From contig NZ_JACJHY010000001.1 in NCBI RefSeq assembly GCF_014138625.1, positions 62,001 to 126,000 on the forward strand: 64,000 nucleotides of DNA, in the 5' to 3' direction. The notes beneath the pieces were generated by a model. That model was not told the DNA's origin. It saw only the letters and a program-made list of their open reading frames with translations, and searched no databases. A program made the position numbers and the translations under genes. Of this stretch, positions 10,104 through 36,145 are shown in pieces (the stretch's first letter is position 1; the number at the start of each line of letters is the position of its first letter). The stretch comes from Aminobacter ciceronei. GTDB taxonomy: Bacteria; Pseudomonadota; Alphaproteobacteria; Rhizobiales; Rhizobiaceae.

Positions 10104-10152
10104 CCTAAGCTGGCGAGCCGAAATGCAAGCAGGCAGCGGACCAAGGAGCCCA

Positions 10153-10168: not shown

Positions 10169-10171
10169 GCC

Positions 10172-10588: not shown

Positions 10589-10618
10589 GGTCATCTCCTC
10601 ATTTCCATGATCGTCGTC

Positions 10619-10652
10619 CGCGATCTGGGCGTCCGCCAACGCCCAGATCGCG
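10619..10652 (-). terminator. Strong 14-bp hairpin downstream of the SAF-domain dehydrogenase gene
   Basis: Arms CGCGATCTGGGCGT (10619-10632) and ACGCCCAGATCGCG (10639-10652) are perfectly complementary around a 6-base loop. It lies 33 bases past the stop at 10685 and just before the DUF1801 gene, as a terminator should. No T-run. Confidence 0.6.
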
Positions 10653-10684
10653 AGCTTCGCTCGCCTGCCGGCCAGCTCGTTGCC

Positions 10685-13388: not shown

Positions 13389-13397
13389 GCGGCGGCC

Positions 13398-14493: not shown

Positions 14494-15495
14494 TCAGATC
14501 TCCGGCACGGGATCGACGAGAAGCGGGCCGCTGTGCAGGTAACGCGTCGTCTTGCGCTTGGAGGCGATGTCGGTCCAGACGCGGCCAACCTGCTCGGCGG
14601 TCAGCCCGGCAGCACGGCCGACTTCTTCCGCCGCAATGCCGTTGTTGAGCCCGTAGAGGCACAGGTCCATGCGATCATATGGCAAGGAGAAATAGAACTC
14701 CTCCTGCGTCTGCTGCAGCGAATAGGTGTCGGTGGTCGGCGGCCGCCGGCGGATTTCCTCCGGCACGCCGAGATGGGCGGCCAACTGGTAGACCTGCGAC
14801 TTGTAGAGATGGGCGATCGGCTTGACGTCAGCGGCACCGTCGCCGTTCTTGACGAAGAAGCCTTGGTCGTATTCCAGCCGGTTCGGTGTGCCGATGACGG
14901 CGTAGTTGAGTCGGTCGGCGTGGAAATATTCGACCTGCTTGCGCGTCCGCTGCTTCATGTTGGTCGAGGCGACGATGCCGAGATAGACATGCGGCGGCAT
15001 GCGCAGCTTGGTCTGCTTGCCCTCGGGATCCTGCACCACCAGCGACGAAATGTTGTAGCCTTCGTTGGTCAGCGCATTGGCGATGACGATCTTGCACGCC
15101 CAGCCGGCGCCGTATTCGGGCACCAGTTCACGGATGAAGGCGTCGCGGCGCTCGTAGCAGCCCATCGCCTTGAGCGTCGGGCCGATGTTCTCGACGACCG
15201 CGGATATCCCGAAGGTTTCGGCGACGAGGCGTCCGAGACGCAGGCTTTCGGGATCGGAATCGTCCTCCGGCATGAACAGAGCAAAGACGTTCTTGGCGCC
15301 GACGGCGCGCACCGCGAGGGCAGCACTGACGCTCGAATCGACGCCGCCCGACAGGCCGAGCACAAGCCCGCGCCGGCGGAGCGTGCCGGTCAGTTGGCTG
15401 CGCAAGGCGGCTGATATTCTCGTCGCTTCGGCTTCGGGATCGATGGTCAGCGTCGCCGCGCCGAAACTGCCGGTTTGCGCCAATGGCATGTTCAT
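14494..15495 (-). CDS. NadE-like ATP-dependent amide synthase (divergent NAD synthetase homologue)
   Basis: 333 residues. The PP-loop SGGVDSS is at residues 49-55 in RRGLVLGLSGGVDSSVSAAL. The NadE core follows (STNMKQRTRKQVEYFHADRLNYAVIGTPNRLEYDQGFFVKNGDGAADVKPIAHLYKSQVYQLAAHLGV). It lacks the N-terminal glutaminase domain, so it would use free ammonia. Against typical ammonia-type NadE (about 275 residues) it has an insertion around residues 85-150, and the usual GTD in the active-site strand reads GTP. It overlaps the AMP-ligase gene by 4 bases and is last in an operon with an acyl carrier protein and AsnB. It may make an amide in that pathway rather than NAD. Confidence 0.75.
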   Translation of the reverse strand: MNMPLAQTGSFGAATLTIDPEAEATRISAALRSQLTGTLRRRGLVLGLSGGVDSSVSAALAVRAVGAKNVFALFMPEDDSDPESLRLGRLVAETFGISAVVENIGPTLKAMGCYERRDAFIRELVPEYGAGWACKIVIANALTNEGYNISSLVVQDPEGKQTKLRMPPHVYLGIVASTNMKQRTRKQVEYFHADRLNYAVIGTPNRLEYDQGFFVKNGDGAADVKPIAHLYKSQVYQLAAHLGVPEEIRRRPPTTDTYSLQQTQEEFYFSLPYDRMDLCLYGLNNGIAAEEVGRAAGLTAEQVGRVWTDIASKRKTTRYLHSGPLLVDPVPEI

Positions 15496-17027
15496 TGCGT
15501 CGGCTCCATGGATTCGGCGGCGAGACGCCGGCTGACCTTGCCGGTGTCGGTCCGGGGCAATTCGGATCGGAACTCGATGATTTTGGGCACCATGAAATCC
15601 TCGAGATTGGCTTGGCAGTGGCGCAGGATTTCACGCTGGGTCAGGTTGGGATCGGAGAGCACGATCAGCGCGCCGATGGCGTGTCCGAGGATAGGGTCGG
15701 GTATGCCGATCACCACCGCCTCGGCGACACCGGGACAGGCGTGAAGAACGGCCTCGACCTCCTTGGGCGCCACCTTTTCACCACGCGTCTTGATGATGTC
15801 GTCCTTGCGCCCGACGAAATAGAGGAAACCTTCGGCGTCGCGGCGGAACAGGTCGCCGGTGTAGAGCAGCTTTTCCCACGGGTTGAAGCCCGGGCGCAGC
15901 ATGCGGTTGGTCGCTTCCGAATTCTCCCAGTAGCCCTGCATGACATGCGGCCCGCGGATGACCAACTCGCCCGGTGTATCAGGCGGCACCGGCTGGCCGA
16001 GATCGTCGACGACGAAGGCTTCGGTGTTGGGAATGGCGATGCCGACCGATCCGGGGCGCCGGTCGAGCTCCGCCGGCGGCAGGTAGGTGCAACGCTTGCA
16101 CTCGGTCAGGCCATACATGGAATAGAGCCGGGCGCCGGGGAACAGCTCGCGCAGCCGTGCGATATGGGCCGGCGGCAGGGCGGCGGCGGTGTTGGTGACG
16201 TAGCGCAGGCTGGGCAGGAAGCCCGGTTTGATGTCGCGCATCTGCAGGATCAGCGCCGCCATTGTCGGCACCAGCGGGAAGCCGGTGACGTTCTCGGCGC
16301 GGATGACGTCGAAGATCGCCTGCGGGAAGGAGAACGACTTCTCCAGCACCAGCGTCGCGCCCATCTTGATCGACATGATCAGCTGGTAGAGCCCGTAATC
16401 GAAGGCCAGCGGCAGGACGTTGAGGATGATGTCGTCTGGTGTGTTCTCGAGATAGGTGGTGATCGAACCGGCCGCCGCCTCGATGTTGCGATGGGTCATC
16501 ATCACGCCTTTGGGCCGGCCGGTCGAGCCCGAGGTGTAGATCAGCATGGCAAGGTCGACGTCGATGCCGCCATGAAGGGGCATTGCGGCACTGCCTTGCA
16601 GGCATTCTTCGAATGAGACCGCACCTTCCGGTGCCTTGCCGCCGGCAGCCGTTGACACGACGATCAGTTCGCCGCCGTCATTCGCCTCGGTGACGACCGG
16701 CAGCAGCCGGGCCTGGGTCAGCACGGCGCGCGCGCGGCAGTTGCCGATGATGAAATCGAGCTTGTCGGCTTTGGTCGACGGGTTGATCGGACTGAAGACG
16801 GCACCGGCCTTGGCAATGGCGAACACCGACACCGCGGCTTCCCAGCAATTGTCCATGAAGACCAACACGCGATCGCCACGGCCGACGCCAAGATCGCCGA
16901 GCCTTGCTGCCAGCCGGTCCGACATGCTGTCGAGTTCGGCGTAGGTCAGGCGCATGTCGCGGGCAATCAGCGCGGTCTTGTCGCCCCGCAACCGCGCACT
17001 GTCGCGTAAGAACTGCTCCAGTCGCAT
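15492..17027 (-). CDS. AMP-dependent acyl ligase/acyl-CoA synthetase
   Basis: 511 residues of the ANL superfamily. The P-loop-like motif YTSGSTGRPKG is at residues 164-174; further core motifs are YSMYGLTECKR, YTGDLFRRDAEGFLYFVGRKDDIIKTRGEKVAPKEVE, and the C-terminal catalytic Lys in LPRTDTGKVSRR. It activates a carboxylic acid as acyl-AMP and transfers it to a thiol. The acyl carrier protein gene 17 bases upstream suggests that the acceptor is that carrier's phosphopantetheine arm rather than CoA. Start at 17027 behind GGGAGGGG; the 4-base overlap with the NadE-like gene shows coupling. Confidence 0.88.
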   Translation of the reverse strand: MRLEQFLRDSARLRGDKTALIARDMRLTYAELDSMSDRLAARLGDLGVGRGDRVLVFMDNCWEAAVSVFAIAKAGAVFSPINPSTKADKLDFIIGNCRARAVLTQARLLPVVTEANDGGELIVVSTAAGGKAPEGAVSFEECLQGSAAMPLHGGIDVDLAMLIYTSGSTGRPKGVMMTHRNIEAAAGSITTYLENTPDDIILNVLPLAFDYGLYQLIMSIKMGATLVLEKSFSFPQAIFDVIRAENVTGFPLVPTMAALILQMRDIKPGFLPSLRYVTNTAAALPPAHIARLRELFPGARLYSMYGLTECKRCTYLPPAELDRRPGSVGIAIPNTEAFVVDDLGQPVPPDTPGELVIRGPHVMQGYWENSEATNRMLRPGFNPWEKLLYTGDLFRRDAEGFLYFVGRKDDIIKTRGEKVAPKEVEAVLHACPGVAEAVVIGIPDPILGHAIGALIVLSDPNLTQREILRHCQANLEDFMVPKIIEFRSELPRTDTGKVSRRLAAESMEPTQ

Positions 17028-17044
17028 TGCCCCTCCCAAGCGCC

Positions 17045-17332
17045 TCAGGCGGCGCCAGCTGCCTGTTTTACGGGTTGCGCTGCTGCCTGCTTCGCCTCGA
17101 TGAAAGCCGCGATCCGCACCAGCGAGTCGAGATTGGCCGGAACGATGTCGGAATCCGCCATTTCGAGCCCGAACTGGTCCTCGATATAGGTCACCAGTTC
17201 CAGCACGCCGGTGGAGTCGATCACGCCGCTTTCGATCAGCGAAACGTCATCGGCGAGCGCGTAGGACGTGTCCCCGAACAGGAAGTTGTCGATGATGAAG
17301 GCTTTGACCGTGTCCTTGATCTGCTGCGTCAT
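17045..17332 (-). CDS. Acyl carrier protein
   Basis: 95 residues. The phosphopantetheine attachment Ser is Ser40 in LIESGVIDSTGVLELVTYIEDQFG, where the common DSL motif reads DST. Helices I-IV of an ACP are recognisable; the extra 15-residue Ala/Gln-rich tail is unusual. Start at 17332 behind AAGGAGAGAGC. The gene sits between the asparagine synthase and the AMP-ligase, so it is a dedicated carrier for this pathway and not the fatty-acid ACP. Confidence 0.88.
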   Translation of the reverse strand: MTQQIKDTVKAFIIDNFLFGDTSYALADDVSLIESGVIDSTGVLELVTYIEDQFGLEMADSDIVPANLDSLVRIAAFIEAKQAAAQPVKQAAGAA

Positions 17333-17354
17333 GCTCTCTCCTTTTGTTTCATCG

Positions 17355-19298
17355 TCAGGCGGCCTCGGTGACATCGGATCTGGATCCGGCGAACGACCGG
17401 TGCCACAGCTGCGTCGACAGGATGCCGACAAAGGCAGCGTTGTCCCGGAAGCCCGTCACCGCCTGCTGCCGGCACTTTTCGGTCAGCTTCCTTACCGTCG
17501 AAACGTCGAAGAATCCTGAATCGGCGATCGCCTCGGAACTCATCGCATCACGCAGCCACGGCTGCTCGCCAGCGCCGACGAAAGATTGCGAATCCGGAGC
17601 GCGGTAGGGCTGCTTCGTGCGTTGGCCGATCGACGGCGGCAACAGGTCCTTGGTCGCCTCGCGCAAGATGTGCTTTTCGACCAGCCCCTTGAGCTTCATG
17701 CCGGGCGGCAGCCAGCTGGCGAACTCGACAAGGCGATGATCTAGGAACGGGAAGCGGCCCTCGATGCCATGCGCCATCGACATGCGGTCACCCTGGCTCG
17801 ACAGGATGTAGCCCGGCAACAGGTAGCGGCTTTCGAGATATTGCGCCTGGTGCAGCGGATGCCAGCGGGCGAAACGCTCCGGCAGTTGCGAGGCGAGCTC
17901 GGCTGCCGCGTCATAGGATGCGAGTTTGGCGCGCAGGTCGCCGGAGAAGAACAGCTTGGCAGCAGCCGTGTTGCGCATGCGCGGACGGTGCGAATAGAGC
18001 GGATCGTCGAGGCTGTCCTTGCCGGCGCCGAAGAAGGCGGCGAGATAGGACGCCGACTGCTTCTGCAACCCCGGCAGATAGGGGTAGAGCTTGCGGAACA
18101 GATGCGGCCGGCTGGCCGAACCGGGCTGGCGGTCGCAGAAGCGCCGCACCAGCGTCTCCTTGAAGATGTCGTAGCCGGCGAAGACCTCGTCGGCGCCCTC
18201 GCCCGTCAGCACCACCTTGATGCCCTTGGCGCGCACCAGCCCGGAGAGCTGATAGAGCGGCGCCGGTGCCGTGCGGATGACCGGCCGCTCCGTGGCATTG
18301 ATCACCTCCGGGAAGATCGAGGCGATGTCGCCGGGCCCGACATTGACCGCGCTGTGGTGCGATCCGATGGCCAGCGCCATCTCTTCCTGGAACTCGCTTT
18401 CGTCATGCTCGGCACTGTCGAAGGTCACCGAGAAGGTGCGCAAGCCCCCGGTCGCCATCGGTGCTGCCAACGCCGAGACGATGGAGGAATCGAGACCGCC
18501 CGAGAGGTAGGAGCCGACGGTGACGTCGGCGCGCATGCGGATGCGGGTCGCGTCGGTCAGAAGCTCCCGGAGTTCCTCCGCCGCCTGCCTCTCGTCGCGC
18601 GGCGCCCGGGATGCTTCGGCATCGGGGAAATCAAGCTGCCAATAGGGACGCGTCACCAGCCCGCCCTTGTCGGCGATCATGATGTGCCCGGGTTCGAGCT
18701 CGTAGACATTCTTGAAAGCGGTGCGCGGCGCGATCGGCGCCCACAAGGTGAAGATCTGGTCGAGCGCGATTTCGTCGAGTTCGGCGGTGAAATCGGGCAC
18801 CCTGGCAAAGGCCTTGACCTCTGAAGCGAAATACAAAGTGCCGCCGACTTCGGTGTAGAACAGCGGTCGCACCCCCATCCGGTCCCGGGCGAAGAACATG
18901 CGCTGCCGCGGCGCGTCCCAGACGGCGAAAGCAAAGTCGCCATTCATCAGGTCGACGCAGTCGGGGCCCATCTCCTCATAGAGATGCAGGATCACTTCGG
19001 TGTCACTGCCTGTGCGAAACCGGCGGCCGCGCGCCTTCAGCTCGTCGCGCAGTTCGACATAGTTGAAGATCTCGCCGTTGAAGGCGATGTGGAGGTCGCC
19101 CGAAGCGCTGGCCATCGGCTGCTGGCCGTCGCCAAGGCCGACGACCGACAGGCGGGCATGGCCAAGGCCGGCCGAAGGACAGACGAACACGCCCTGCTCG
19201 TCGGGACCCCGATGGGCGATGCTGCCGGTCATGCGCCGCAGCAGCCCGTCAGCCGTTGCTGGCTCGACATTCCCGAGATACCCGACAAATCCACACAT
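17355..19298 (-). CDS. Asparagine synthase (glutamine-hydrolysing) family amidotransferase
   Basis: 647 residues. The N-terminal class II glutaminase starts with the catalytic Cys2 (MCGFVGYLG) and includes AHRGPDEQG, FNGEIFNY and GSDTEV. The synthetase half has SGGLDSS at residues 266-272 and LTGEGADEVFAGYDIF. It moves glutamine ammonia to an acyl-adenylate. AsnB homologues in secondary-metabolite and polysaccharide loci often amidate substrates other than aspartate; here the first position in an operon with an ACP, ligase and NadE-like gene supports a specialised role. The start at 19298 faces a divergent methyltransferase gene. Confidence 0.9.
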   Translation of the reverse strand: MCGFVGYLGNVEPATADGLLRRMTGSIAHRGPDEQGVFVCPSAGLGHARLSVVGLGDGQQPMASASGDLHIAFNGEIFNYVELRDELKARGRRFRTGSDTEVILHLYEEMGPDCVDLMNGDFAFAVWDAPRQRMFFARDRMGVRPLFYTEVGGTLYFASEVKAFARVPDFTAELDEIALDQIFTLWAPIAPRTAFKNVYELEPGHIMIADKGGLVTRPYWQLDFPDAEASRAPRDERQAAEELRELLTDATRIRMRADVTVGSYLSGGLDSSIVSALAAPMATGGLRTFSVTFDSAEHDESEFQEEMALAIGSHHSAVNVGPGDIASIFPEVINATERPVIRTAPAPLYQLSGLVRAKGIKVVLTGEGADEVFAGYDIFKETLVRRFCDRQPGSASRPHLFRKLYPYLPGLQKQSASYLAAFFGAGKDSLDDPLYSHRPRMRNTAAAKLFFSGDLRAKLASYDAAAELASQLPERFARWHPLHQAQYLESRYLLPGYILSSQGDRMSMAHGIEGRFPFLDHRLVEFASWLPPGMKLKGLVEKHILREATKDLLPPSIGQRTKQPYRAPDSQSFVGAGEQPWLRDAMSSEAIADSGFFDVSTVRKLTEKCRQQAVTGFRDNAAFVGILSTQLWHRSFAGSRSDVTEAA

Positions 19299-19482
19299 AC
19301 GCCGGACTCTGTTTCGCTAGTGCGACAAGCGCACGTGTTTAGCGCAAGTTAACCAATGGCAGGAAAGCACACTTCCGATATCAAAACACATCACAAAGCC
19401 GATAGTCTCGGTTTCGCAACCGTCGATACGATAGTAGATATTGATAGAAGGTTCTTTGTGTAACGAATTGTATGAACAAGTC
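19299..19482. promoter_or_regulatory. Divergent promoter region with repeated GATA(G) motifs
   Basis: This region is clearly more AT-rich than its flanks and separates the AsnB operon from the methyltransferase gene. GATAG occurs at 19401, 19430 and 19443 and GATA at 19425 and 19437, all within 47 bp and on the same strand. They could bind a regulator coordinating both units, or be chance in an AT-rich stretch. Confidence 0.4.
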
Positions 19483-20271
19483 ATGTTGATGACAATCGCA
19501 CCCGGGAGAAGCATTGATCGGTTGACGATCCGGGGCGCTGGGGTTGTCATGGAGCGGGCAAAGGACTTGGCGAGGGCAACCATGCATATCGTTGAGAACA
19601 ACGGCGACAAGTCTGGCATCAGGCTGCACAAATTCATGGACATCGAGCTCGAGCTCGGGAGCGACGTGCTCGTGCCGCGCGAGGAAACCGAAATCCTCGG
19701 CCGTGCAGCGCTCGGCCTGCTCTACGGCCGCGGCGCCGACGCCAGGGTAATCGACATGTGCTGCGGCTCCGGCAATCTCGGCCTGGCGATCGCCGCCAAG
19801 ATGCCGGGCGCGCGCGTCTGGAGCGCCGACCTGACCGACAGCACCGTCGCCACCGCCCGTCGAAATGCCGACCGTCTCGGTCTGGCCGACCGGGTGACCA
19901 TTGCCCAGGGCGACCTGTTCGGCGCCTTCGACGGGATGGACCTAGCCGGGTCCATCGACCTTGTCGTCTGCAATCCGCCCTACATCTCGTCTGCACGCCT
20001 CGAAGGCGATCGCAGCGAATTGCTGGCCTCCGAACCGAGGGAAGCCTTCGACGGCGGCCCCTACGGTCTGTCGTTCCACCAGCGGTTGATCCGCGATGCG
20101 GTGACCTTCCTCAAGCCCGGCGGCTGGCTCGCCTTCGAATTCGGCGTCGGCCAGGACCGCCAGGTGGCAGCCCTGCTTGCCCGGGCGCGCGTCTATGCAC
20201 CGGTGGAATTCGTGTCCGACGTCGCCAAGACACCGCGCGCGGCGATCGTCCGCAAGCTCGATCCCGCGTGA
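19483..20271 (+). CDS. HemK/PrmC-like N5-glutamine or small-molecule methyltransferase
   Basis: 262 residues from the ATG at 19483. SAM-binding motif I is VIDMCCGSGNLGLAIAAKMP. The HemK-type catalytic NPPY is in DLVVCNPPYISSARLEGDRSE, and the lead-in DIELELGSDVLVPREETEIL matches PrmC. The N-terminal recognition domain of true PrmC is shortened, so the target may be a small glutamine- or amide-containing molecule rather than release factors. The start is uncertain: TTG at 19441 and ATG at 19549 are alternatives and none has a clear ribosome site. It is divergent from the AsnB operon and followed after 79 bases by a probable acyltransferase. Confidence 0.75.
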   Translation: MLMTIAPGRSIDRLTIRGAGVVMERAKDLARATMHIVENNGDKSGIRLHKFMDIELELGSDVLVPREETEILGRAALGLLYGRGADARVIDMCCGSGNLGLAIAAKMPGARVWSADLTDSTVATARRNADRLGLADRVTIAQGDLFGAFDGMDLAGSIDLVVCNPPYISSARLEGDRSELLASEPREAFDGGPYGLSFHQRLIRDAVTFLKPGGWLAFEFGVGQDRQVAALLARARVYAPVEFVSDVAKTPRAAIVRKLDPA

Positions 20272-20350
20272 CCGGGAGCCCGACCTTCACCCTTCCTAGA
20301 TGTTTCCCGCCTAAGCCATTGCTGCCGTGACATGACCGAGGCTTCGCCCG

Positions 20351-21466
20351 ATGCCTGAAATTCGTCCATTGCAGGCCGCTGATATGGCGGTCGTCGCAGA
20401 CATGTTCCAGCGCGTGCTGCGCAAGCGGCGCACGCCCACGCCCGCCTCGCTGCCCGCCTATCTCCAGCGCCTCTATCTCAGTTCCACCGACGCTACGGCG
20501 GGGTCGCCATCCCTGGTCAATGTCGCCGACGACGGCAGCATTTCGGGCTTCATCGGCGTGACGTCACTGCCCATGCGGTTTGGTGACAGGAAGCTGAACG
20601 CTTCGATCTGCGGTTCGCTGATGGTCGACGAGGACCAGCGCAACGACCTGTCCGGCGCAAGGCTGCTCAAGGCATTTCTCGCCGGTCCGCAGGACCTGTC
20701 GTTCAGCGAGACGGCAAGCGACGTTACCGCCAATATGTGGACGACGCTGCGCGGCTCGATCCTGCCTGACTACAGCCTCGACTGGATCAAGGTATTCAGA
20801 CCGGCAGCCTTCGCCGTTGCCGGTGCCAGACAGCGCCTGCCCATCGCACGCCTCGGCGCGCCGCTGGCCCGCGCCGTCGATGCCTGTCTCGGCCTTCGCC
20901 GCAGCGGCGAGTTTTCGCGCTGGTTCGGCGCCGGCGACGCGGCGGCCTCGCAAGGCCGCTACACAGTGGCAAGCATCGATGCCGACGGCTTCGCCGTACT
21001 GCTCGGCAAATTCACCTCGCGCTTCGCCATTCATCCGGATTGGAACGAAAACGCACTGTCGCGCATCATGTCGGATGCCTCGGCCAAGACGGATTTCGGC
21101 GACATCTGCCGCTGTACGGTTGCGGCGCGCACAGGTGCCGTGATCGGTGCCTTTGTCTATTTCGGCCGGCCCGGTGGCATCGGCCATGTGCTCCAGGTTC
21201 TGGCCTTGCCCGGCCAGGCTGGTGCCGTGATCGACTGCCTGATCAACCATGCCGCCGGCGTCGGCCTCGCCGGTCTCAGAGGCAGGACCCAGCCAGCCCT
21301 GCTGGAAGCGATGCTCGGCCGGCGCATCATCTTCATCAACGTCAACTCGACGGTGGTGCATTCGCGTGATCCCGAGCTCGTCCGGCAGTTCCAGACTGGT
21401 AACGGCTTTTTCAACGGGCTGGTGGGCGAGCATTGGAGCCGCATCTTCGGCGATCGTTTCGACTGA
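20351..21466 (+). CDS. Uncharacterised GNAT-like acyltransferase
   Basis: 371 residues without signal peptide or membrane segments. The N-terminal region (MPEIRPLQAADMAVVADMFQRVLRKRR, then ISGFIGVTSLPMRFGDRKLNASICGSLMVDEDQRN) has the strand and turn pattern of a GNAT N-acyltransferase. The second half (DISCRC..AVIGAFVYFGRPGGIGHVLQVLALPGQAGAVIDCLINHA region) may be a second GNAT-like repeat. I do not recognise the exact family. Its place after the methyltransferase and opposite the AsnB/ACP operon suggests that it acts on an ACP-bound or activated acyl group. It ends 6 bases from the convergent Sel1 gene. Confidence 0.6.
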   Translation: MPEIRPLQAADMAVVADMFQRVLRKRRTPTPASLPAYLQRLYLSSTDATAGSPSLVNVADDGSISGFIGVTSLPMRFGDRKLNASICGSLMVDEDQRNDLSGARLLKAFLAGPQDLSFSETASDVTANMWTTLRGSILPDYSLDWIKVFRPAAFAVAGARQRLPIARLGAPLARAVDACLGLRRSGEFSRWFGAGDAAASQGRYTVASIDADGFAVLLGKFTSRFAIHPDWNENALSRIMSDASAKTDFGDICRCTVAARTGAVIGAFVYFGRPGGIGHVLQVLALPGQAGAVIDCLINHAAGVGLAGLRGRTQPALLEAMLGRRIIFINVNSTVVHSRDPELVRQFQTGNGFFNGLVGEHWSRIFGDRFD

Positions 21467-23821: not shown

Positions 23822-23859
23822 CTCCCTGACTGGCGCCTGGCAAGCGGCGCCAGCAAAAC

Positions 23860-26208: not shown

Positions 26209-28104
26209 TTACTTGATCCACTCGCCCATCCCGATTCCCTGTTCGTTTGGCGCAAAGACGCTCGCGTCGGCCGTAGCGCGCACCAGGCGGAAGCGCGCCG
26301 AGCCGCGCAAGGCTTCTTCGATCGCGTCGAGCGAGCCTTTCGGCATCACGCCGAGATCGTCGATGTAGGCCTTCTGGCTGCGCGTGATGATGATGAAGGC
26401 GGAGCCTGCCGGCACCGCACGCAACCAGTCCCCGAGCTCGGTAGCCGGATCGGCGAGAACCGCTGAAATGGATTGCTTGCTCTCGTTGGAGATCGGCACA
26501 TAGGTGAAGTTCTCGTAGTTCATGAACTGCTCGGGATAGTTGGGCGCGCCCTCGACAAGCACCGAACCGGCCGGCGCGTTGTTGTAGAGCCATTCCGACG
26601 CCTCCACTTCGGCCCGTGAGAAGGTGTACTGGCGGTCCTTGCCGTTGTTGGCGAGGACGAAAGCGACCGTGAGCACGGCGCCGAACGTGCCGATGGCGTA
26701 GCGCGCGATGGCGTCGCGCTGGGAGCCGGACCATGGGAAAAACAGTGCCGCGGCAAAGAAGGTCAGGAAAGGCAGTGCAAAGAGATAGACGCGGAACACG
26801 ATCTCGCCGCCATAGGAGGTGGCAACGATCATGAAGGCTGGAGCCAGCGTCAGCACGATGGCCGGACCGTCGCGGAACCCCGCCACGAGCCGGCGCAGAC
26901 CGCCGAGGACCGCCGCCAACGCGATCGCACCGGTCAGCGCTCGCGACGCCAAGGACACCACCACCTGTCCTTCACTGACGATCGAGGTATCCACCAGGCG
27001 CTCGCTGATCTCGTTCGAGGTGTCGCCGAAACGCTGGACCAGCTCGGGCAGGACCGAGGACATGTAGCCGTCGGCGTAGAACAGCAGCCATGTGACTTCG
27101 ACGAGGCCGGCAAAGACGAGGTAGCCAAGGCTCAATTGTCCGATGACCCAGAGGCCGCCAAGGGCCATGAGCACGACTATCGGCGTGAGCGGGTGGGTCG
27201 CCGTGATCATCACGATCAGCGCCATGGCCGCCAGTGAGGCTACGGCACGCAGTTTTGGCGGGACGGCCAGCGTCACCGGCGGCTGGCCACGCGAGACGAA
27301 GGCGAAATAACGGCCGCAAAACTTGGAAAAGCCACGCCCGTTCGGGTCGGCCCAGCCGGGCACGATCCGCAGCGGGCCGACACAAAGCGCGACCAGCAAG
27401 AGATAGAACAGAAAGGCGACGCCCTGCGGCGAGAAATAGTCCTGGCCGATCCAGTTGCCGATGACGAACAGCCAGACCCCGCCCCACACCAGCCGTGGGT
27501 CGGCGGTGAAGCGGCGATAGATCTGCGGCAGCACCAACACATAGAGCAGGTTAAGCGCCGGCGGCGAAAAGCGGGCGATGTCAGCCAGTTGGATCGGTTT
27601 GATGTCGAACAGGTTGGCGATCGCGGCGCAGAAGACGAACAGGCCGGGCCAATTGGCGTAGGTGGCAAGGAATGGCGCCTTCGGATCGATCTGGCCGTGC
27701 CGCTGGGCATAGTCGACGACACCGACATGTTTCCAGGCCCAGGCGTAACGCAACTCGTCATAGACGATGGCCGGGGTGCCATGAAGCAGCAGCACCAGCA
27801 TGACGATCATCAACAGCGGCATCGGCGTCTCGCAGACGCCGCGCCTCAGGCTCAAGGCAAAGCCGAGGCCGACGGCGGCATAGGCCACCCAGATGATGCC
27901 TGGCAGGACAGAGATCAGGCCATAGTCGTCGACACCGGCAGGATCGGTGACGAACAGGACGGCCAGCCATAAAGCAAAGGCCAGGCAAAGACAGATCGAC
28001 GCGAGGTTGAACGGCGCTGTCGAGACACGGCCAGCATCCGCCAGGGGCGGCGCCTTCAGCGCCGGCGACATGGCAAGACTGAATTCCCGCGTCATCACAT
28101 TCAT
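26209..28104 (-). CDS. Polytopic membrane protein, probable glycosyltransferase or polymerase of the EPS locus
   Basis: 631 residues with about 12 hydrophobic segments between residues 30 and 480, then a soluble C-terminal domain of about 130 residues (EWLYNNAPAGSVLVEGAPNYPEQFMNYENF to FRLVRATADASVFAPNEQGIGMGEWIK). The layout recalls lipid-linked-sugar-dependent GT-C membrane transferases (GT39/ArnT-like) or O-antigen-type polymerases. I see no decisive catalytic motif, though acidic residues in the first periplasmic loop (DYGLIS; ELRYAW) are candidates. It overlaps the flippase-kinase gene by 4 bases (ATGA). Probable role: adding sugars to or polymerising lipid-linked repeat units on the periplasmic side. 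Confidence 0.65.
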   Translation of the reverse strand: MNVMTREFSLAMSPALKAPPLADAGRVSTAPFNLASICLCLAFALWLAVLFVTDPAGVDDYGLISVLPGIIWVAYAAVGLGFALSLRRGVCETPMPLLMIVMLVLLLHGTPAIVYDELRYAWAWKHVGVVDYAQRHGQIDPKAPFLATYANWPGLFVFCAAIANLFDIKPIQLADIARFSPPALNLLYVLVLPQIYRRFTADPRLVWGGVWLFVIGNWIGQDYFSPQGVAFLFYLLLVALCVGPLRIVPGWADPNGRGFSKFCGRYFAFVSRGQPPVTLAVPPKLRAVASLAAMALIVMITATHPLTPIVVLMALGGLWVIGQLSLGYLVFAGLVEVTWLLFYADGYMSSVLPELVQRFGDTSNEISERLVDTSIVSEGQVVVSLASRALTGAIALAAVLGGLRRLVAGFRDGPAIVLTLAPAFMIVATSYGGEIVFRVYLFALPFLTFFAAALFFPWSGSQRDAIARYAIGTFGAVLTVAFVLANNGKDRQYTFSRAEVEASEWLYNNAPAGSVLVEGAPNYPEQFMNYENFTYVPISNESKQSISAVLADPATELGDWLRAVPAGSAFIIITRSQKAYIDDLGVMPKGSLDAIEEALRGSARFRLVRATADASVFAPNEQGIGMGEWIK

Positions 28105-30575
28105 ATTGCGCCTCCATCGGTGGAGACGATCCTAAGAACACGATCGACATTTGACGCAATCCAAAGCCGGCCGACGCCCGAATGCGCCGGGCGCCGCGCC
28201 CGCTCGCTAACCTGATGCAGCCAGACGAGGCCGACCATGGCACGGATCGCCGCGCCATCGCCGCTCCAGTCATCGTCCCCGTCCGAGCCGATGCCCAGCC
28301 ACTGCCGCTCGTCGTTGCGCCACTCCGGCGTCCACAAGAGATCGGCAACGGCCGCGCCGAGCGGCTCGCTGCTGGTCATCATGCGCATGGCGACAGCCAG
28401 AACGCAGCCGTCGAAGCCACGTGGCGCGTTGGATCGCGCATTGCCCCATTCCAGCAGGCTGGCAAGTCGGGCGGCACTGCCCTGCCCCGAGGCGAAGTTC
28501 AGGTTTTGCGGCCAAAGATCGCCATGGCACCAGCCGAGACGCACCTGGCGACCGAGCCAGTAGCGCCGCTGCTGGCCAACGAAACGTTCTATCGCCCGAC
28601 GCCGTGCTGCTGCCAACATCGTCGATCCGCCGAGCTGCGCAAGCTTTGCCGCCGGACGTTCGACCCATTCGTGGAACCAGACGTCGTCGATGGTCCGCAT
28701 GGCGGCTGTCTGGCCGTGCAAGATGGCCACGGCCTTCGCCGCGGCTTCGAGGCCCGTCTGCCGCTCGGACGCGTCGCGCAGCAGCACCCGCCCATCCGTC
28801 CCAGGTGCCATCGCCTCGATGCAATCGACGGCTCCGCCGATACGGGTGACTGACAGCCTCGTCGGCAACATCGGCCACAGCGGCTGAAGACGCGTATCCG
28901 CGTGCAGCAGGTCGAGATTGTCGACCAGGCGCTCGAGATAGGCGGCGGCGATCGGGTTGCGCGCGCTGCGGAGAACGGCATAAGTGCCTTGCGACCGAAC
29001 GGGCGCGTGCCGCACCGCCTCCTCCAGCACCGGGTCCCCGAGGTAGACGATGTCAGTTCCTTCGGGTCCATGCTCGGATTTCAGCGCATGCCAGCCCGAG
29101 GCAGCGGAGCTTCCGGTCTTTGCCAGGAGCGGCCGGAGCTCGGCGTCACCAGGAACGGCAATGCCCTTGTTGCGGCCGAAAGGCAGGAACTGGGCCGAGA
29201 GGGACTTCAGCGAAGCGGCAACCGCCAGACCCCAGTCGTGCATGCTGTGGCGGCGGCTGGTGACGAGGGCGAGCGCGCCGACGCCAAATGTGACCACCAG
29301 CATCGCCAGCAGCCAGGCATGCGCCATGCCGATCGGCCCTTCACTGCGCACCAGAAGCGCGCCGGCGCCGAGGGCTATGACCAGCGTCGCGACTTCGGCC
29401 GCCGCCACCGAACGCATCCAGCCCTTGGTGCGGGCGATCGACAGATAGATCGAGAGCACGGCCGATACGACACTGGCCAGTGTGAACACCCTGAGGATCG
29501 CAGCACCTTCGGTGGCGTAGGCCGCACCGAACACCGACATGATGGGATGGGCGAACACCAGCATCAGCGCGACGAGGCCGAGCAGCGGCAGCACCGACAT
29601 CACAGCCGCATCCGCCGCCAGCGCGCGCAGCCGGCCGGTGTCGCTGGCGCCCTCGGCGAGCAGCGACAGCCCCATCGAGCTGCCGACATAATAAAGCGAG
29701 GTGAAGATCGTCCAGGCGACGAAGAAGCTGGCGCTTTCGGCCGCGCCGACAAAATTGAGCACGACCAGCGGTGTCGCCGTCCAGGCCACCATCATCGACA
29801 CCGAACCGATGTAGTCCCAGCCGAAGAAGCGCGCCATGGCGCGGCGGTCAATCAGATTGGCATGGCCGGTTCCGGCTTGCGCCTTGGGCACGAGGCGCTT
29901 GAAAATCAGCATGTTGACGGCGAGAACGAAGACCAGAACCGGTGCGGTCCACGACAGTGCGATGGCCTCCCATCCGAGCCCGGCGAGCGCCAGCGGGATG
30001 AGCATGGCGATCTTGACGACCTGGTAGATTGTCTTCGAGACCGGCACCCAGATCGACTGGCGCAGGCCCGACAGCGCACTGTCCTGCAGCGCGAACACCG
30101 ACCAGACGGCGACGGTCGCCACGAACCACAGGATGACGCCCGCGCTCTCGGTCAGCACGTCGAGCTTGGGCATGAAGGCGCCGACGACCAGCAGGAAGAC
30201 GATAGCGACGACGACCGAGGCGATGAAGGACGTGGCGTAGGCGAACAGGATCAACCGGCCGGCGCGGCCGCCGACAGTCGGCACGAAACGAACCAGCAGG
30301 TTGCCAAAATTGAGCTGGGCAGCGTTGGACAGGTTGACGATGGTGGCGGTGATGGCGCCGCCGAGACCGATCGCCTCCTGCGAACAGTAACGCGCCGCCA
30401 GGAACCAGAACGCCAGCCCCAGCACCGCACTCAGGCCGCTGTTGGCGATCAGCGCGTAGCCGTTGCGCATCAGCGACGAGCCCATCAGCGCCTGCGGGAT
30501 GAGTGATCGCCAACCACTGCCGCCCGCCTGTGCCGTGGGCTCTCGGTGCCGCAGGGTGGGCGGGTGCGCGGTCAT
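28101..30575 (-). CDS. Polysaccharide flippase fused to an aminoglycoside-phosphotransferase-like kinase domain
   Basis: 824 residues. About residues 35-440 are a 12-14-helix Wzx/MATE-type oligosaccharide flippase (LIANSGLSAVLGLAFWFLAARYCSQEAIGLGGAI). About residues 500-824 are a cytoplasmic APH-fold domain: TYAVLRSARNP (N-lobe strand, Arg where the ATP-binding Lys is usual), VDCIEAMAPG (hinge), WCHGDLWPQNLNF (catalytic-loop H-G-D-x4-N at about 684-691) and SLLEWGNA (about 709, Glu replacing the metal-binding Asp). The altered Lys and Asp mean it may be a pseudokinase or use a modified mechanism. It overlaps the genes on both sides by 4 bases. Likely role: export of lipid-linked repeats gated or modified by the kinase-like domain. 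Confidence 0.8.
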   Translation of the reverse strand: MTAHPPTLRHREPTAQAGGSGWRSLIPQALMGSSLMRNGYALIANSGLSAVLGLAFWFLAARYCSQEAIGLGGAITATIVNLSNAAQLNFGNLLVRFVPTVGGRAGRLILFAYATSFIASVVVAIVFLLVVGAFMPKLDVLTESAGVILWFVATVAVWSVFALQDSALSGLRQSIWVPVSKTIYQVVKIAMLIPLALAGLGWEAIALSWTAPVLVFVLAVNMLIFKRLVPKAQAGTGHANLIDRRAMARFFGWDYIGSVSMMVAWTATPLVVLNFVGAAESASFFVAWTIFTSLYYVGSSMGLSLLAEGASDTGRLRALAADAAVMSVLPLLGLVALMLVFAHPIMSVFGAAYATEGAAILRVFTLASVVSAVLSIYLSIARTKGWMRSVAAAEVATLVIALGAGALLVRSEGPIGMAHAWLLAMLVVTFGVGALALVTSRRHSMHDWGLAVAASLKSLSAQFLPFGRNKGIAVPGDAELRPLLAKTGSSAASGWHALKSEHGPEGTDIVYLGDPVLEEAVRHAPVRSQGTYAVLRSARNPIAAAYLERLVDNLDLLHADTRLQPLWPMLPTRLSVTRIGGAVDCIEAMAPGTDGRVLLRDASERQTGLEAAAKAVAILHGQTAAMRTIDDVWFHEWVERPAAKLAQLGGSTMLAAARRRAIERFVGQQRRYWLGRQVRLGWCHGDLWPQNLNFASGQGSAARLASLLEWGNARSNAPRGFDGCVLAVAMRMMTSSEPLGAAVADLLWTPEWRNDERQWLGIGSDGDDDWSGDGAAIRAMVGLVWLHQVSERARRPAHSGVGRLWIASNVDRVLRIVSTDGGAI

Positions 30576-31408
30576 GACCCGGCACGCCGCCAGACACGAA
30601 CATAGTCGATCAGGAAATCGGCCGGGAATTTGGTCCTGGCGTCAGGCGACCCCGGCCAGTTGCCGCCGACGGCCAGGTTGATGAGCAGGTACATCGGTTC
30701 CTGCGAGATGCCGTCTGGCTTGGTGTAGCGCCACATCTCCTTGCCATCGAGATACCAGACGACGGCATCCTTGCGCCATTCCAGGCCATAGGCATGCCAG
30801 TCGGCCGAAAGGTCGACCACCTTGGCGTTCTTGCCCTCGCTCTTCCAGTCCTTCTTCTTGTCGAGATAATGCAGGTGCATCTCGTAGACGTCGGGCGCAT
30901 GACCCAGGACTTCGAGGATGTCGATTTCCGGACGCGGCTCCTGCGTCGATGGCAGAAGCCAGATCGCCGGCCACAGCCCTTTGCCCCTGGGAATCTTGGC
31001 GCGGATCTCGAAATAGCCGTATGTGGTGGCGAAACGGTCTGGCTTGGCGCGCTCGAGATAATCACGCCCCGTGGTCACCATGCCCGACGTGTAGTCGAAG
31101 GTGCGCCCTTCATGGCCGGTCACCGTCTCCGGCCGCGCCGTCAGCCGCAGCACGCCGTCGGCAACGCTGACATTGTCGGGCATGTACCACTGCAGTTCCT
31201 TGTTGGCGAGATTGGTACAGCCGTCCTTGTCCCACCAGTAGCAGCGGGTCCACTTGTCGCGATCGAGCTTGGGCTGGTCGAATTCTTCGGTGAAGATCCG
31301 CTCCCATTGCCCCTTGATCAGTGGCGGCTCGACGCCTTGGGCCATGGCACCCGCATGCCCAAACCACCAGGCGCCCGCCAGCGCCACGCCCCACAACCCC
31401 TTACCCAT
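30572..31408 (-). CDS. Secreted GH16 family endo-beta-glucanase
   Basis: 278 residues. The signal peptide is about MGKGLWGVALAGAWWFGHAGAMA. The GH16 catalytic motif E-I-D-I-L-E is in TQEPRPEIDILEVLGHAPDVYEMHLHY, with nucleophile and acid/base Glu and assisting Asp all present. Other family marks are GYFEIRAKIPRGKGLWPAIWLLP and YLLINLAVGGNWPG. Bacterial GH16 enzymes in EPS loci (ExoK-like) trim beta-1,3/1,4 polymers. Start set at 31408 because the signal peptide begins there. It heads the five-gene minus-strand EPS operon and overlaps the flippase gene by 4 bases. Confidence 0.9.
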   Translation of the reverse strand: MGKGLWGVALAGAWWFGHAGAMAQGVEPPLIKGQWERIFTEEFDQPKLDRDKWTRCYWWDKDGCTNLANKELQWYMPDNVSVADGVLRLTARPETVTGHEGRTFDYTSGMVTTGRDYLERAKPDRFATTYGYFEIRAKIPRGKGLWPAIWLLPSTQEPRPEIDILEVLGHAPDVYEMHLHYLDKKKDWKSEGKNAKVVDLSADWHAYGLEWRKDAVVWYLDGKEMWRYTKPDGISQEPMYLLINLAVGGNWPGSPDARTKFPADFLIDYVRVWRRAGS

Positions 31409-31945
31409 GCACCAACCCGATAAGCCTGAACACACTCAATCGTCGCGAGAGAGGGTTGCCGGCCGTTGCCTGCGTGGTCCCGCCAAAAGGCGGTTCGCGC
31501 GCATTTGCCGGTTACCCGGAAATCTGTCGCTTACGATCTGTTAACTAGGACGGTTACCCGACGCTGCGTCAAGCTGTTTTGCCGCGCTCGGTAAATGACA
31601 TGACCCATTCAGGGCCAAAACCAAGATCATGTTTTTGGATTTTCGACGCATCGACTTGTCTGTCGAAATAGCGCCTATCTGTCCGGAATGCTTTATTTGA
31701 TTGGTTTTGACTTTGATTGGCATGTTCGAGATAATTCTCTATCACGAAGAAATAACAAAATTGTGATACAAAATATCTTTATGGCACTGCGGTAACCGTT
31801 TCTGAACAAACGCGAATCCGAAAAGCAACGCCTCAGGTGCAAAGGTAGTGATATCTCACGAAATCTGCGACATTGGGTGGAAAGTGGGAGGCTTCGGACG
31901 GATACTGACCCGACAAATTTCGGGAGCGAACAGGACGTGCACGCC
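31409..31945. other. Divergent intergenic region of 537 bp with AT-rich core
   Basis: Separates the GH16-led operon from the FemAB-like gene. The part from about 31,570 to 31,860 is distinctly AT-rich against its flanks and probably contains both promoters. TATCAC (31740-31745) and GTGATA (31763-31768) form an inverted repeat with a 17-base spacer, a candidate operator. No credible small gene is seen. A GTG at 31877 could extend the FemAB-like protein by 23 residues. Confidence 0.5.
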
Positions 31946-33004
31946 ATGGCGAGCACGTCGGCGGCTTTCGACGTGCAGAGCCCGGCGCCGCGCGACCTCT
32001 GGCATCGCCTGATGCTCGCCGATCCCGAAGCCCTGCCCTACCAGTCGCCGGCCTGGCTCGACAGCCTGTGCGCCCTCGGCAAATACCAGGACGCCAGCCG
32101 CGCCTACCGCTTTGCCGGCGGACATCACTACGTGCTGCCGATGGTGCGCAACAGGCACCTGCCGGCGCGGCTGGCGGTTGCCGAGTCGATGCCATATGCC
32201 TGGGGTCGTGGCGGCGTGCTCTCGTCGATGATGCCAAAGGTCGAACATCTCCGCACGATTTTCGAAGACCTAGGCAAGCTGCCCTATCTCAGGATTTCGG
32301 TAAGACCCAATCCGCGCCATGCCCATCTGTGGGCCGCAGCAGCTCCTGCCCATGTCACCTCGGTGCCGGGCCTCGCCCACATCCTTGACCTCGATGGCGG
32401 ATTCGACGCCGTCTGGTCGACGCGCTTCAAGAAAACGACGCGGACGCGGGTGCGCAAGGCCGAACGCGGCGGCATCGTCGTCGAGCGTGACACCTCCGGA
32501 AAGCTGGTGCCGGTCTTCCACCAGCTGTTACGCACGTCTTTCGACCGCTGGGCCGACAAGCAGCAAGAGCCACGCATGCTGGCGCATCTAAGGGGGCGCA
32601 GGCGCGATCCGATGGCAAAATTCAGCTCGATCGCCCGGCATTTCGGCGAGGCCTGCCGCATCTGGGTCGCCTGGGTCGATGGCAAGCCGGCGGCGGCGGC
32701 GTTCGTGCTGCAATATGGCAATGTCAACGACGCCCGCGGCGCGATCGACCGCCATGCGCTGGGCAGCTCGGGCGCCAACGACCTGATCCAGAAACTTGCC
32801 ATAGAAGAGGCCTGCCACAGCGGCTGCCGCTACTACCATTTCGGCGAGACCGGCGCCTCGGCCTCGCTCGCGCACTACAAACAGCGGTTTGGCGCGACAC
32901 CGCACGCGCACGCCGAATACTTCCTGGAGAAGCTGCCGATCACCGCCGTCGACGCCCGCGTGCGGCACGCGGCGAAATGGACGATCGGCTTCAAGGATAC
33001 CTAG
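31946..33004 (+). CDS. FemAB/GNAT-type acyltransferase of the EPS locus
   Basis: 352 residues from the ATG at 31946, preceded by AGGA. The C-terminal half matches the BioF2-like/FemAB GNAT fold: TRFKKTTRTRVRKAERGGIVVERD, RIWVAWVDGKPAAAAFVLQYGNVNDARGAIDRHALGSSGANDLIQKLAIEEACHSGCRYYHFGETGAS, then LAHYKQRFGATPHAHAEY. Such proteins in exopolysaccharide loci are expected to transfer an acyl or aminoacyl group to a sugar or lipid carrier. Cytoplasmic; substrate unknown. Divergent from the GH16 operon. Confidence 0.78.
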   Translation: MASTSAAFDVQSPAPRDLWHRLMLADPEALPYQSPAWLDSLCALGKYQDASRAYRFAGGHHYVLPMVRNRHLPARLAVAESMPYAWGRGGVLSSMMPKVEHLRTIFEDLGKLPYLRISVRPNPRHAHLWAAAAPAHVTSVPGLAHILDLDGGFDAVWSTRFKKTTRTRVRKAERGGIVVERDTSGKLVPVFHQLLRTSFDRWADKQQEPRMLAHLRGRRRDPMAKFSSIARHFGEACRIWVAWVDGKPAAAAFVLQYGNVNDARGAIDRHALGSSGANDLIQKLAIEEACHSGCRYYHFGETGASASLAHYKQRFGATPHAHAEYFLEKLPITAVDARVRHAAKWTIGFKDT

Positions 33005-33012
33005 AGGGCTGG

Positions 33013-33034
33013 GCAATTCCGGACCTGGAATTGC
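33013..33034. terminator. Bidirectional terminator-like hairpin
   Basis: GCAATTCC (33013-33020) and GGAATTGC (33027-33034) make a perfect 8-bp stem with a 6-base loop between the convergent genes ending at 33004 and 33049. Confidence 0.55.
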
Positions 33035-33048
33035 TGCTGTCCTGCCGC

Positions 33049-34125
33049 TCAGCTGGGGAAGGCCAGAAGCAGCATCCGTTGGGCGATCAGGTAGAATGCG
33101 GCAGCGAGCAGCAGCACCGGCACCACTTCGAGCCAAAGCGGCCAGCGCGATCGGCCGGGACGCAGGCTGGCGACCGAAACCTGGCGGATCGCCAACGCGG
33201 CGAGCGCCGAAACGGCCGCAACGAGCCCCGTCCTGTAGCCGCCGGTCGCATCGTCGGCGCGGAGATTTTGTTCCTCGACTTCGGCGCGCAGTTGCAGCAG
33301 CCCATCGGCATCCACGGCCTGCGGCAGCCGAACCCTGACATTTTTGACCGACGGATGACCAAGCAGCGCCTCGCGGAAACGCTCGAGCATATCGGGATCG
33401 TAGGGATCACCCTGCTTGAAGGGCTGCAGGCGGCTCAGCTCATCTTGCTTCAGACCGACAAGGCCGCTGTAGGCAACAGCGCCAAAGCGCGCCAATGCCC
33501 CCGGCTCGACGACGATGCGAGCCGTAGCCAGCGCCTGCCCCGGGATAGGCTGCAACGCACGCCCGGTGACGCGGACAAAGGGATAGGATGCTGTGCGGAG
33601 CCGCCACAGGACTTCATCTTCGAGGGTTGCGAGCAGATCGCCGCGCGCGGGCTTGCCGACCGCCTCCATCATTTGCAGCGAAACGTCGTCGCGCACCGCA
33701 TCGGTGGCAACACCCTCGAGACCGTCGACCTCAACCATGCCGACACGGAAAAGCGGACCGGCGATCGGCCTGAGCGCGATCTTGTCGGGAGAGCCCGCGT
33801 CATCAGCGGCATCAGGCATCTCGATCCGCGCATGGAGATAGCCCTGGCCGCGCATCAATTCTTCCAGCCGGTGGCGTTCGGCTTCGACCGCAGGCTGCCA
33901 GCCCCGAGTTGCCGCACCGTCGGCTGCGCGTTCAAGCTCGGGAGCGTTCAGCGCCGCGCGCAACACACCGTCCAGCGCGTCATTGGACGTTGTCTGGAGT
34001 TCGATGGCGGGAAAGTCCGCAGCAACAGCCGGACCGGCAAAAAGCGACAGCATCGCCGCCCAAGCCAGTGTCGCCACAATGGCCGGCAAGAAACAGGCGC
34101 TTCGCTGGGCGTCTCGCGTTCTCAC
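33049..34125 (-). CDS. POTRA-domain protein without a beta-barrel, C-terminal membrane anchor
   Basis: 358 residues from the GTG at 34125. That start gives a normal signal peptide (RTRDAQRSACFLPAIVATLAWAAMLSLFAGPAVAA); an ATG at 34230 would add 35 residues that do not look like one. About residues 45-295 contain two to three POTRA-like modules (FPAIELQTTSNDALDGVLRAALN, PLFRVGMVEVDGLEGV, ARFGAVAYSGLVGLKQDELSRLQPFKQGDPYDPDMLERFREALLGHPSVKNVRV), as in TamA and BamA. The 16-strand barrel of those proteins is missing; instead the C-terminus has hydrophobic segments (about 305-325 and 335-355). It is probably an inner-membrane-anchored periplasmic adaptor for envelope or EPS export. Confidence 0.72.
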   Translation of the reverse strand: MRTRDAQRSACFLPAIVATLAWAAMLSLFAGPAVAADFPAIELQTTSNDALDGVLRAALNAPELERAADGAATRGWQPAVEAERHRLEELMRGQGYLHARIEMPDAADDAGSPDKIALRPIAGPLFRVGMVEVDGLEGVATDAVRDDVSLQMMEAVGKPARGDLLATLEDEVLWRLRTASYPFVRVTGRALQPIPGQALATARIVVEPGALARFGAVAYSGLVGLKQDELSRLQPFKQGDPYDPDMLERFREALLGHPSVKNVRVRLPQAVDADGLLQLRAEVEEQNLRADDATGGYRTGLVAAVSALAALAIRQVSVASLRPGRSRWPLWLEVVPVLLLAAAFYLIAQRMLLLAFPS

Positions 34126-34247
34126 CCGCTCTAAATACACCGCAACGGCGCGCGCTGGAAATAGCCCACCAAGTCCAAGTCGGCGGAGGCCGGCAGGCCT
34201 GGCCGCAGCCACCGCGAGCGGATCTGCCAAAACGGCGCCGGTCGCGC

Positions 34248-34589
34248 CTACTTCTTGTCGGAACTGTCCTCGGATCCGGAAGGCGTTTCGGATTCATCGC
34301 GACCGATCGTGCCAATGACGATCGAGCCGCCGAGGGGCCGGCGCCGTTGCCGCGTCTCGGCCACGACCTTGTCCATCTCGGACTTGATTTCGGCCAACGT
34401 AGCCAGCGCCTCGTCCTCCCAGCGCTTCAATTCCGGATCAGGCGTGCCCGAGGCCGCCTCAGCTGTGGCCCGCGCCTCGCGTACGGTCAGGTAGTCCTTG
34501 TAGGCCTCGTCCCACTTGCGGGTCAGGAGAACCCAGTCGTCGAAGGCATCGGGGGCAGGAGGAGTTTCGGGTCGCTGTGGGCTAGGCAA
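34248..34589 (-). CDS. Hypothetical small charged protein
   Basis: 113 residues from a TTG at 34589, placed 6 bases after AGGA; a GTG at 34628 is the longest alternative. The protein is helical and charged (DDWVLLTRKWDEAYKDYLTVREARATAEAASGTPDPELKRWEDEALATLAEIKSEMDKVVAETRQRRR), probably a short coiled coil, with an acidic Ser/Asp/Glu tail. No signal peptide, membrane segment or family I recognise. It lies 122 bases upstream of the POTRA gene on the same strand and may be co-transcribed with it. Confidence 0.55.
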   Translation of the reverse strand: MPSPQRPETPPAPDAFDDWVLLTRKWDEAYKDYLTVREARATAEAASGTPDPELKRWEDEALATLAEIKSEMDKVVAETRQRRRPLGGSIVIGTIGRDESETPSGSEDSSDKK

Positions 34590-36135: not shown

Positions 36136-36145
36136 GCGAGCGATC

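Follow-up and report, generated by a model that had tools for sequence, protein, structure and literature searches.

A conserved AsnB, ACP, ligase and NadE-like gene cassette in Aminobacter ciceronei and a candidate role in decorating surface polysaccharides

Acyl decoration by way of carrier proteins, and modules that place an AsnB-type amidotransferase, an acyl-activating ligase and an acyl carrier protein (ACP) near exopolysaccharide (EPS) genes, are known kinds of system, as NCBIfam names also reflect. Here, we describe a locus in a 64,000-nucleotide stretch of Aminobacter ciceronei, hereafter the window (NCBI RefSeq assembly GCF_014138625.1, contig NZ_JACJHY010000001.1, positions 62,001 to 126,000 of the forward strand). 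At positions 14494-21466 of the window, four minus-strand genes in the order AsnB-ACP-ANL ligase-NadE-like face two plus-strand genes encoding a methyltransferase and a predicted tandem-GNAT acyltransferase. Its core of four genes forms a genuine cassette and no chance grouping, retained in Hyphomicrobiales and beyond, with the GNAT-type protein as its usual partner and the methyltransferase as its optional partner.

The closest described proteins are those of Sinorhizobium meliloti. As stated in the available passages of PMC7232532, the pSymB ligase SMb20650 is co-transcribed with the ACP SMb20651, acylates it in Escherichia coli with AcpS and cannot substitute for FadD. In the passages available from two further papers, the function of SMb20651 was said in 2017 to need more investigation (PMC5686131), and SMb20650 was among genes down-regulated under Myxococcus predation (PMC10315480), from which nothing is drawn here. 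The names are those of PMC7232532, as the pSymB record carries no locus tags, and a search of pSymB of S. meliloti 1021 found exactly one AMP-binding protein, inside the cassette beside the ACP; being the sole such protein found on pSymB, the cassette ligase is identified with SMb20650. Over the best matched stretches, the window proteins share 77% (ligase), 72% (ACP), 74% (AsnB), 83% (NadE-like, or 76.5% with the BLAST low-complexity filter on), 68% (methyltransferase) and 53% (GNAT) identity with their S. meliloti counterparts. The published S. meliloti work that was found addresses, in the passages available, the ligase and ACP only; the listings and passages searched gave no function for the cassette, and narrow word searches of open-access text returned no paper describing this gene set. 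An earlier sequence-only reading of the window had called the pathway undescribed, which is too strong a word, since the ACP and ligase are orthologues of the published SMb20651 and SMb20650.

Layout and conservation of the cassette

The core runs along the minus strand from an AsnB-like glutamine amidotransferase of 647 residues (17355..19298) through an ACP of 95 residues (17045..17332) and an ANL (AMP-forming) ligase (15492..17027) to a NadE-like PP-loop ATPase (14494..15495), with junctions of 22, 17 and -4 bases; the coordinates and the junctions of 4-22 bases in the sequence-only reading were thus correct. The best start of the ACP is ATG 17332, with AAGGAG upstream, in a longest open reading frame (ORF) that extends to 17431, and that of the ligase is ATG 17027, with GGAGGGG upstream, in a longest ORF extending to TTG 17039. 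On the plus strand follow the gene of a HemK-family S-adenosylmethionine (SAM) methyltransferase (19441..20271; start uncertain) and that of the 371-residue GNAT-like protein (20351..21466). The divergent intergenic stretch that separates the two units (19299..19440) is a possible regulatory region and had been read as a shared AT-rich promoter. The AT-richness stands, with a G+C content of 0.468 across 19250-19499 against a window mean of 0.648. Sharing of a promoter gained no support, a single minus-strand sigma-70-like site being found where shuffled sequences average 0.3.

To place the cassette among other genomes, an alignment of the NadE-like protein served as the only query, and the 80 best of the 542 candidates that were confirmed were taken as loci, the core being scored as complete by fixed bit thresholds when its genes lay on the same strand, in the same order and within 7 kb. 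All four core genes were found in 75 of the 80 loci, in one order, on one strand and within 7 kb, which bears out the idea of a dedicated pathway whose genes are retained together. Counted singly, the ACP and the ligase were each present in 79 loci, AsnB in 76, the GNAT in 69 and the methyltransferase in 32, with all six genes in 30; the six-gene co-occurrence suggested earlier therefore holds for the four-gene core and its usual GNAT partner and fails for the six genes as a single unit. The five incomplete loci comprise two at contig ends (L076 and L080), one with no ligase detected (L093) and two with no AsnB in the stretch (L106 and L111). In L093, from Devosia crocina, positions 6459-10951 hold GNAT, AsnB, ACP and NadE genes, and no ligase was detected between ACP and NadE. 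The 80-locus and residue-conservation sets are not independent samples, as L020/L032, L029/L098, L140/L100 and L142/L106 are each the same contig reached twice.

Four orders of the core genes were seen, always side by side: AsnB-ACP-ANL-NadE, NadE-AsnB-ANL-ACP, AsnB-ANL-ACP-NadE and, in Azospirillum, ACP-ANL-AsnB-NadE. That adjacency survives rearrangement is the strongest sign that the four genes serve one pathway. Pairwise distances among the four core genes correlate as well (0.70 to 0.92 over 95 sequences), which shows shared descent only. Three rearranged NadE-AsnB-ANL-ACP cassettes are preceded upstream by a further ANL ligase, only distantly related (27-29% identity), at L144 2539-3972, L146 6860-8341 and L154 12283-13521. 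A Hyphomicrobiales-type cassette also lies on a contig labelled Bacillus subtilis SK6B4 (L077), probably through assembly contamination.

This NadE type occurs in 15 of 398 genomes sampled from the phylum (own genome included), and in 13 of the remaining 14 the complete core lies within ~7 kb. In a closer set of 61 genomes (our own and 60 relatives), the NadE-like gene was found in nine (E <= 1e-40), the GNAT in 11 (E <= 1e-3), including all nine, and the methyltransferase in seven (E <= 1e-60), all within the nine; the two cassette genomes from which it is missing are G004 and G051. These genome and locus samples partly overlap. A DapA-like gene, considered as a further partner, was ruled out, being present in four of 110 loci.

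Families, motifs and folds of the six proteins

All six ORFs were present and the families named in the sequence-only reading were confirmed, the GNAT-like protein being named by fold, with no sequence family over its cut-off. AsnB scores above the cut-off of the asparagine-synthase model TIGR01536 (501 bits; cut-off 267) and below those of the AsnB-proper equivalog NF006949 (330; cut-off 499) and of the NAGGN amidotransferase TIGR03104 (363; cut-off 570). Its glutaminase Cys2 and SGGLDSS synthetase loop are intact, and Cys2 is kept in all 100 sequences that cover the position, in a set of 102. The ACP passes PF00550 narrowly (21.9 bits; cut-off 20.8), its S. meliloti orthologue falling below at 13.8 in a DNA search, and the phosphopantetheine Ser, located in GVIDSTGVLEL, is present in 102 of 102 sequences. 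In the ligase, the predicted ACP loader, Lys501 is kept in 105 of 105 sequences, the Asp of the A4 motif in 78 of 105, and Arg316 in the acyl-pocket region is invariant; the positions compared carry the PheA labels 235 and 330. Arg316 could serve to bind a second carboxylate, or else be a family motif.

That AsnB matches the general asparagine-synthase model and not the AsnB equivalog would also suit a division of labour in which AsnB, the NadE-like enzyme or both amidate uronic acids of a polymer or its sugar nucleotide, and an ordinary acyl group comes independently from the ligase, the ACP and the GNAT. Uronamide-forming enzymes of the AsnB type, e.g., WbpS-type enzymes, are known from O-antigen clusters. 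Yet the four genes stay adjacent through their rearrangements, which suggests one linear pathway, and we regard such a division as quite unlikely.

The NadE-like protein belongs with NF002048 (PRK00876), exceeding its cut-off widely (529.8 bits against 313), as do distant members in L151 and L152 (465 and 463 bits). It also exceeds the NadE domain model TIGR00552 (146.8 bits; cut-off 63.65) and remains below both true-NadE equivalogs, PRK13980 (170 of 255 bits) and PRK00768 (96 of 250 bits). The PP-loop SGGxDS (S49, G50, G51, D53 and S54) is retained in all 108 NadE-like sequences. Ordinary NadE chains align to both ends of the protein and skip ~residues 110-175, an insertion seen in the three alignments shown, and the predicted model (predicted local distance difference test (pLDDT) 83.4) has the NadE fold, with a Z score of 27.8 to 2e18. 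In Aminobacter anthyllidis, the closest named genome in the NadE-like scan, the corresponding protein is 98% identical.

The A. ciceronei genome holds two further NadE proteins, in a 562-residue frame (254 bits) and a 300-residue frame (198 bits), so that a role of the cassette protein in making NAD is unnecessary; the idea of a separate pathway would have fallen had the NadE-like protein been the only NAD synthetase of the organism. Elsewhere in the genome are also a second AsnB (556-residue frame) and a separate PrmC over its cut-off (261 bits). Because of these other NadE, AsnB and PrmC copies, the NadE-like, AsnB and HemK-type proteins appear as specialised paralogues. The same copies argue against a housekeeping reading, by which an asparagine synthetase, a NAD synthetase and a fatty-acid ACP and ligase lie together by chance. 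Automatic annotation does use those names; the retention of the cassette across classes and the failure of the S. meliloti ligase to replace FadD, as far as the passages cited above report it, speak against it, and the neighbourhood counts largely refute it. We reject this reading as scarcely credible.

The methyltransferase exceeds the cut-off of the HemK family TIGR00536 (144 bits; cut-off 115.5) and not that of PrmC TIGR03534 (180.5 bits; cut-off 199.1), where its match begins at profile position 51. Its NPPY motif occupies residues 178-181 of the ORF, and NPPYIS is invariant in 33 aligned rows. For the GNAT-like protein, no family exceeded its cut-off by sequence, PF13527 giving 13.7 bits (gathering threshold 25). 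The same model matches 21 of 57 members of the GNAT-like family at E <= 0.1 (best 8e-5), and a search of PDB sequences with the GNAT alignment gave a best E no better than 0.5. Its predicted model (pLDDT 90.5) resembles, over the whole chain, the tandem-GNAT acetyltransferase 3n7z (Z 20.4, 286 residues aligned, root mean square deviation (rmsd) 3.5), the N-myristoyltransferase (NMT) 5uut (Z 19.8, 301 aligned, rmsd 5.2) and Eis (Z 19.3). These comparisons of a predicted model support a two-domain acyltransferase of the GNAT/NMT fold, in line with the probable acyltransferase proposed from the sequence.

A candidate route to amidated groups on surface polymers

Genes for sugar polymers are frequent neighbours of the cassette. 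At least one of 23 marker proteins was found near it in 39 of 80 loci compared with three of 40 control stretches (Fisher p 4.4e-6), an enrichment that is partly circular, as the markers were drawn from cassette neighbourhoods, with self matches removed. Among loci of at least 19 kb the count was 36 of 64, and among further cassette loci 11 of 23 against the same three of 40 controls (Fisher p 3.9e-4). The controls were taken at round coordinates in genomes of the same searches, five of the 40 stretches coming from the cassette-less G026, G046 and G343. In several lineages, Wzx, Wzz, Wzy, glycosyltransferase, deacetylase and nucleotide-sugar genes adjoin the cassette; in Sinorhizobium, Bosea and Pararhizobium the core lies near Wzz, Wzy, glycosyltransferases and a deacetylase, and more distant loci have glycosyltransferases, a polysaccharide-synthesis protein, an export protein, a nucleotidyl transferase, a DegT aminotransferase and an epimerase nearby. 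Beside the methyltransferase and GNAT genes of S. meliloti ml59 are an annotated lipopolysaccharide biosynthesis protein, a second GNAT, and DapA-family, GumC-family and O-antigen ligase proteins. The link to EPS genes made in the sequence-only reading thus stands as a frequent association and not as a constant one.

Clustering of ORFs for constant further partners gave, beyond the core and the GNAT, no cluster larger than 25 of 93 sequences, with the caveat that greedy ORF picking is crude, overlooked some true genes and yields cluster counts that are not gene counts. The largest of these clusters were glycosyltransferase and Wzz clusters. This evidence bears on the possibility that the product of the cassette is a modified lipid or a small molecule for secretion, released from the ACP and not attached to a polysaccharide. 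Sugar-polymer markers are absent from the surroundings of about half of the loci, thioesterase-domain proteins stand beside the cassette at L103 11009-12013 and L148 8678-9715, and the nearest named ACP models, although far below cut-off, are those of ornithine-lipid (OlsHI) and cispentacin ACPs. Against a released product are the linkage, repeated from lineage to lineage, to Wzx/Wzz/Wzy, glycosyltransferase, deacetylase and nucleotide-sugar genes, and the identity of those largest clusters. We consider a released product unlikely, though a serious possibility.

We see the chances as evenly balanced that the cassette is a dedicated pathway in which a carrier-bound acyl group is amidated and then moved onto a surface polysaccharide. 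The ANL ligase would adenylate a common small acid and load it onto the ACP. The loading step has experimental support, because the orthologues SMb20650 and SMb20651 carry it out in the assay reported in the passages of PMC7232532; from that assay, the acid loaded by SMb20650 must presumably occur in E. coli. Judged by family chemistry, AsnB would then draw on glutamine, and the NadE-like enzyme on ammonia, to amidate the free carboxylate or carboxylates of the carried group or of the sugar acceptor. Where present, the HemK-type enzyme would probably N-methylate the amide; the best-known members of its family methylate glutamine amides. The absence of the methyltransferase from G004 and G051, two of the nine cassette genomes, predicts that the product exists both with and without the methyl group. 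The tandem-GNAT protein, by its predicted fold and its neighbours, may take the completed acyl group off the ACP and attach it to an amino group, either on a nucleotide sugar or on a lipid-linked repeat unit; export of the polymer would fall to Wzx/Wzy-type or other genes of the neighbourhood. We infer substrate, product and step order alike.

The pairing of two amidating enzymes leaves two arrangements: two carboxyls, one for each enzyme, or the passage of one carboxylate to an amide and on to an amidine. In the latter, AsnB would make the amide, and activation of that amide by the NadE-like enzyme, with addition of ammonia, would yield an amidine open to N-methylation by the methyltransferase. 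This would account for the presence of two ATP-dependent amidating enzymes, and PP-loop enzymes of the PseA/WbpG type are known to make acetamidino sugars. N-methylated legionaminic acid with acetimidoyl groups, reported from Legionella lipopolysaccharide, is a further parallel. The retained NadE motifs fit ordinary carboxylate amidation equally well, and we judge two nitrogens on one carboxyl improbable. It could still be speculated, as a long shot, that a NAD-synthetase-type enzyme adds the second nitrogen to the AsnB-made amide, so that four linked enzymes build an amidine or N-methyl-amidine acyl group on the carrier and place it on a surface polysaccharide as a cationic decoration.

Several points weigh against amidation on the carrier followed by transfer to a polysaccharide. 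To our knowledge, only the ligase/ACP pair among the cassette enzymes has been assayed. The ligase residues appear to name no substrate, the A4 Asp, at 78 of 105, not being decisive for amino-acid specificity. Besides the circularity mentioned above, no sugar-polymer marker lies within the stretch in 41 of 80 loci and 12 of 23 further loci; the ligase was undetected in one of 80 loci and AsnB in two, and in 11 of 80 the stretch lacks this type of GNAT. Genomes of the wider class seldom carry the NadE type (three of 385 genomes drawn, own included, with G372, on a contig end, left out of the analysis). GNAT relatives of 28-33% identity occur in G026, G046 and G343, which have no NadE of this type, and no core gene was found in the 20 kb taken around them. 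Finally, the methyltransferase and GNAT genes of S. meliloti lie ~10 kb from the core, whereas they adjoin it in the window. Overall, the earlier observation is confirmed and its interpretation partly supported.

If this polysaccharide-decorating pathway is real, bacteria would have a carrier-protein route by which their surface polymers receive amidated and, in some cases, methylated groups, and NAD-synthetase-type enzymes would have a new role. The cassette occurs in many rhizobia and their relatives, offers a candidate pathway for SMb20651 that can be put to the test, and points to a polysaccharide locus ~10 kb away. That S. meliloti locus near the cassette (L113 34757-37669) encodes another GNAT-like protein as well as a member of the DapA family, and many Wzx-bearing loci likewise have an additional GNAT of this type. 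The published SMb21506 is suspected to belong to the same locus, on a record without locus tags.

The window itself contains surface-polymer-like genes on both strands (28101..39174), which encode a membrane protein with an APH-like part, a GH16 protein, a FemAB-type GNAT, three GT2 glycosyltransferase domains and a polysaccharide deacetylase; its GH16, GT2 and deacetylase genes lie ~9 to 18 kb past the GNAT gene. The first protein of this region (28101-30575; 824 residues) has a hydrophobic N-terminal half, flippase-like by eye, and a C-terminal half with an APH-type kinase domain. Next to the GNAT gene, two long Sel1-repeat proteins are encoded in tandem (21473-26073), the first with a C-terminal peptidoglycan-binding domain and each ~48% identical, over ~510 residues, to the other's counterpart in relatives; both adjoin the GNAT in L020, L021, L023, L024 and L025. 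At the other end, at 12309-13706, a BNR/sortilin-like protein is directly followed by a small protein of the ThiS/MoaD type (SAMP1 and MoaD models below cut-off), and this pair also adjoins the cassette in L020, L021, L025 and L032, the first and last being one contig.

Comparison with described systems

Among described systems, the EPS module of XrtA/PEP-CTERM systems is one of the closest, TIGR03098 being the best NCBIfam model for the ligase and TIGR03108 the second best for AsnB. Membership in that module was rejected, as both scores are below cut-off (477 of 592 bits and 434 of 817 bits, respectively). The cassette differs from it by its NadE-like enzyme, in a comparison for which no search for exosortase or PEP-CTERM genes was made. 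AsnB-type enzymes are also known to act on ACP-bound acids, as with malonamyl-ACP in glutarimide polyketides, and glutarimide-type systems share with the cassette an AsnB beside a stand-alone ACP. Their AsnB, however, belongs to polyketide synthases, whereas the cassette groups its AsnB with ligase, NadE-like and GNAT proteins. That the NadE family can change substrate is illustrated by PDB 3fiu, titled as an NMN synthetase of Francisella, which has the same fold as the NadE-like protein (Z 26.9), the latter having its own long insertion and motifs. Set beside these systems, the new element of the cassette is the NadE-like partner and its strict linkage to the other three genes of the core.

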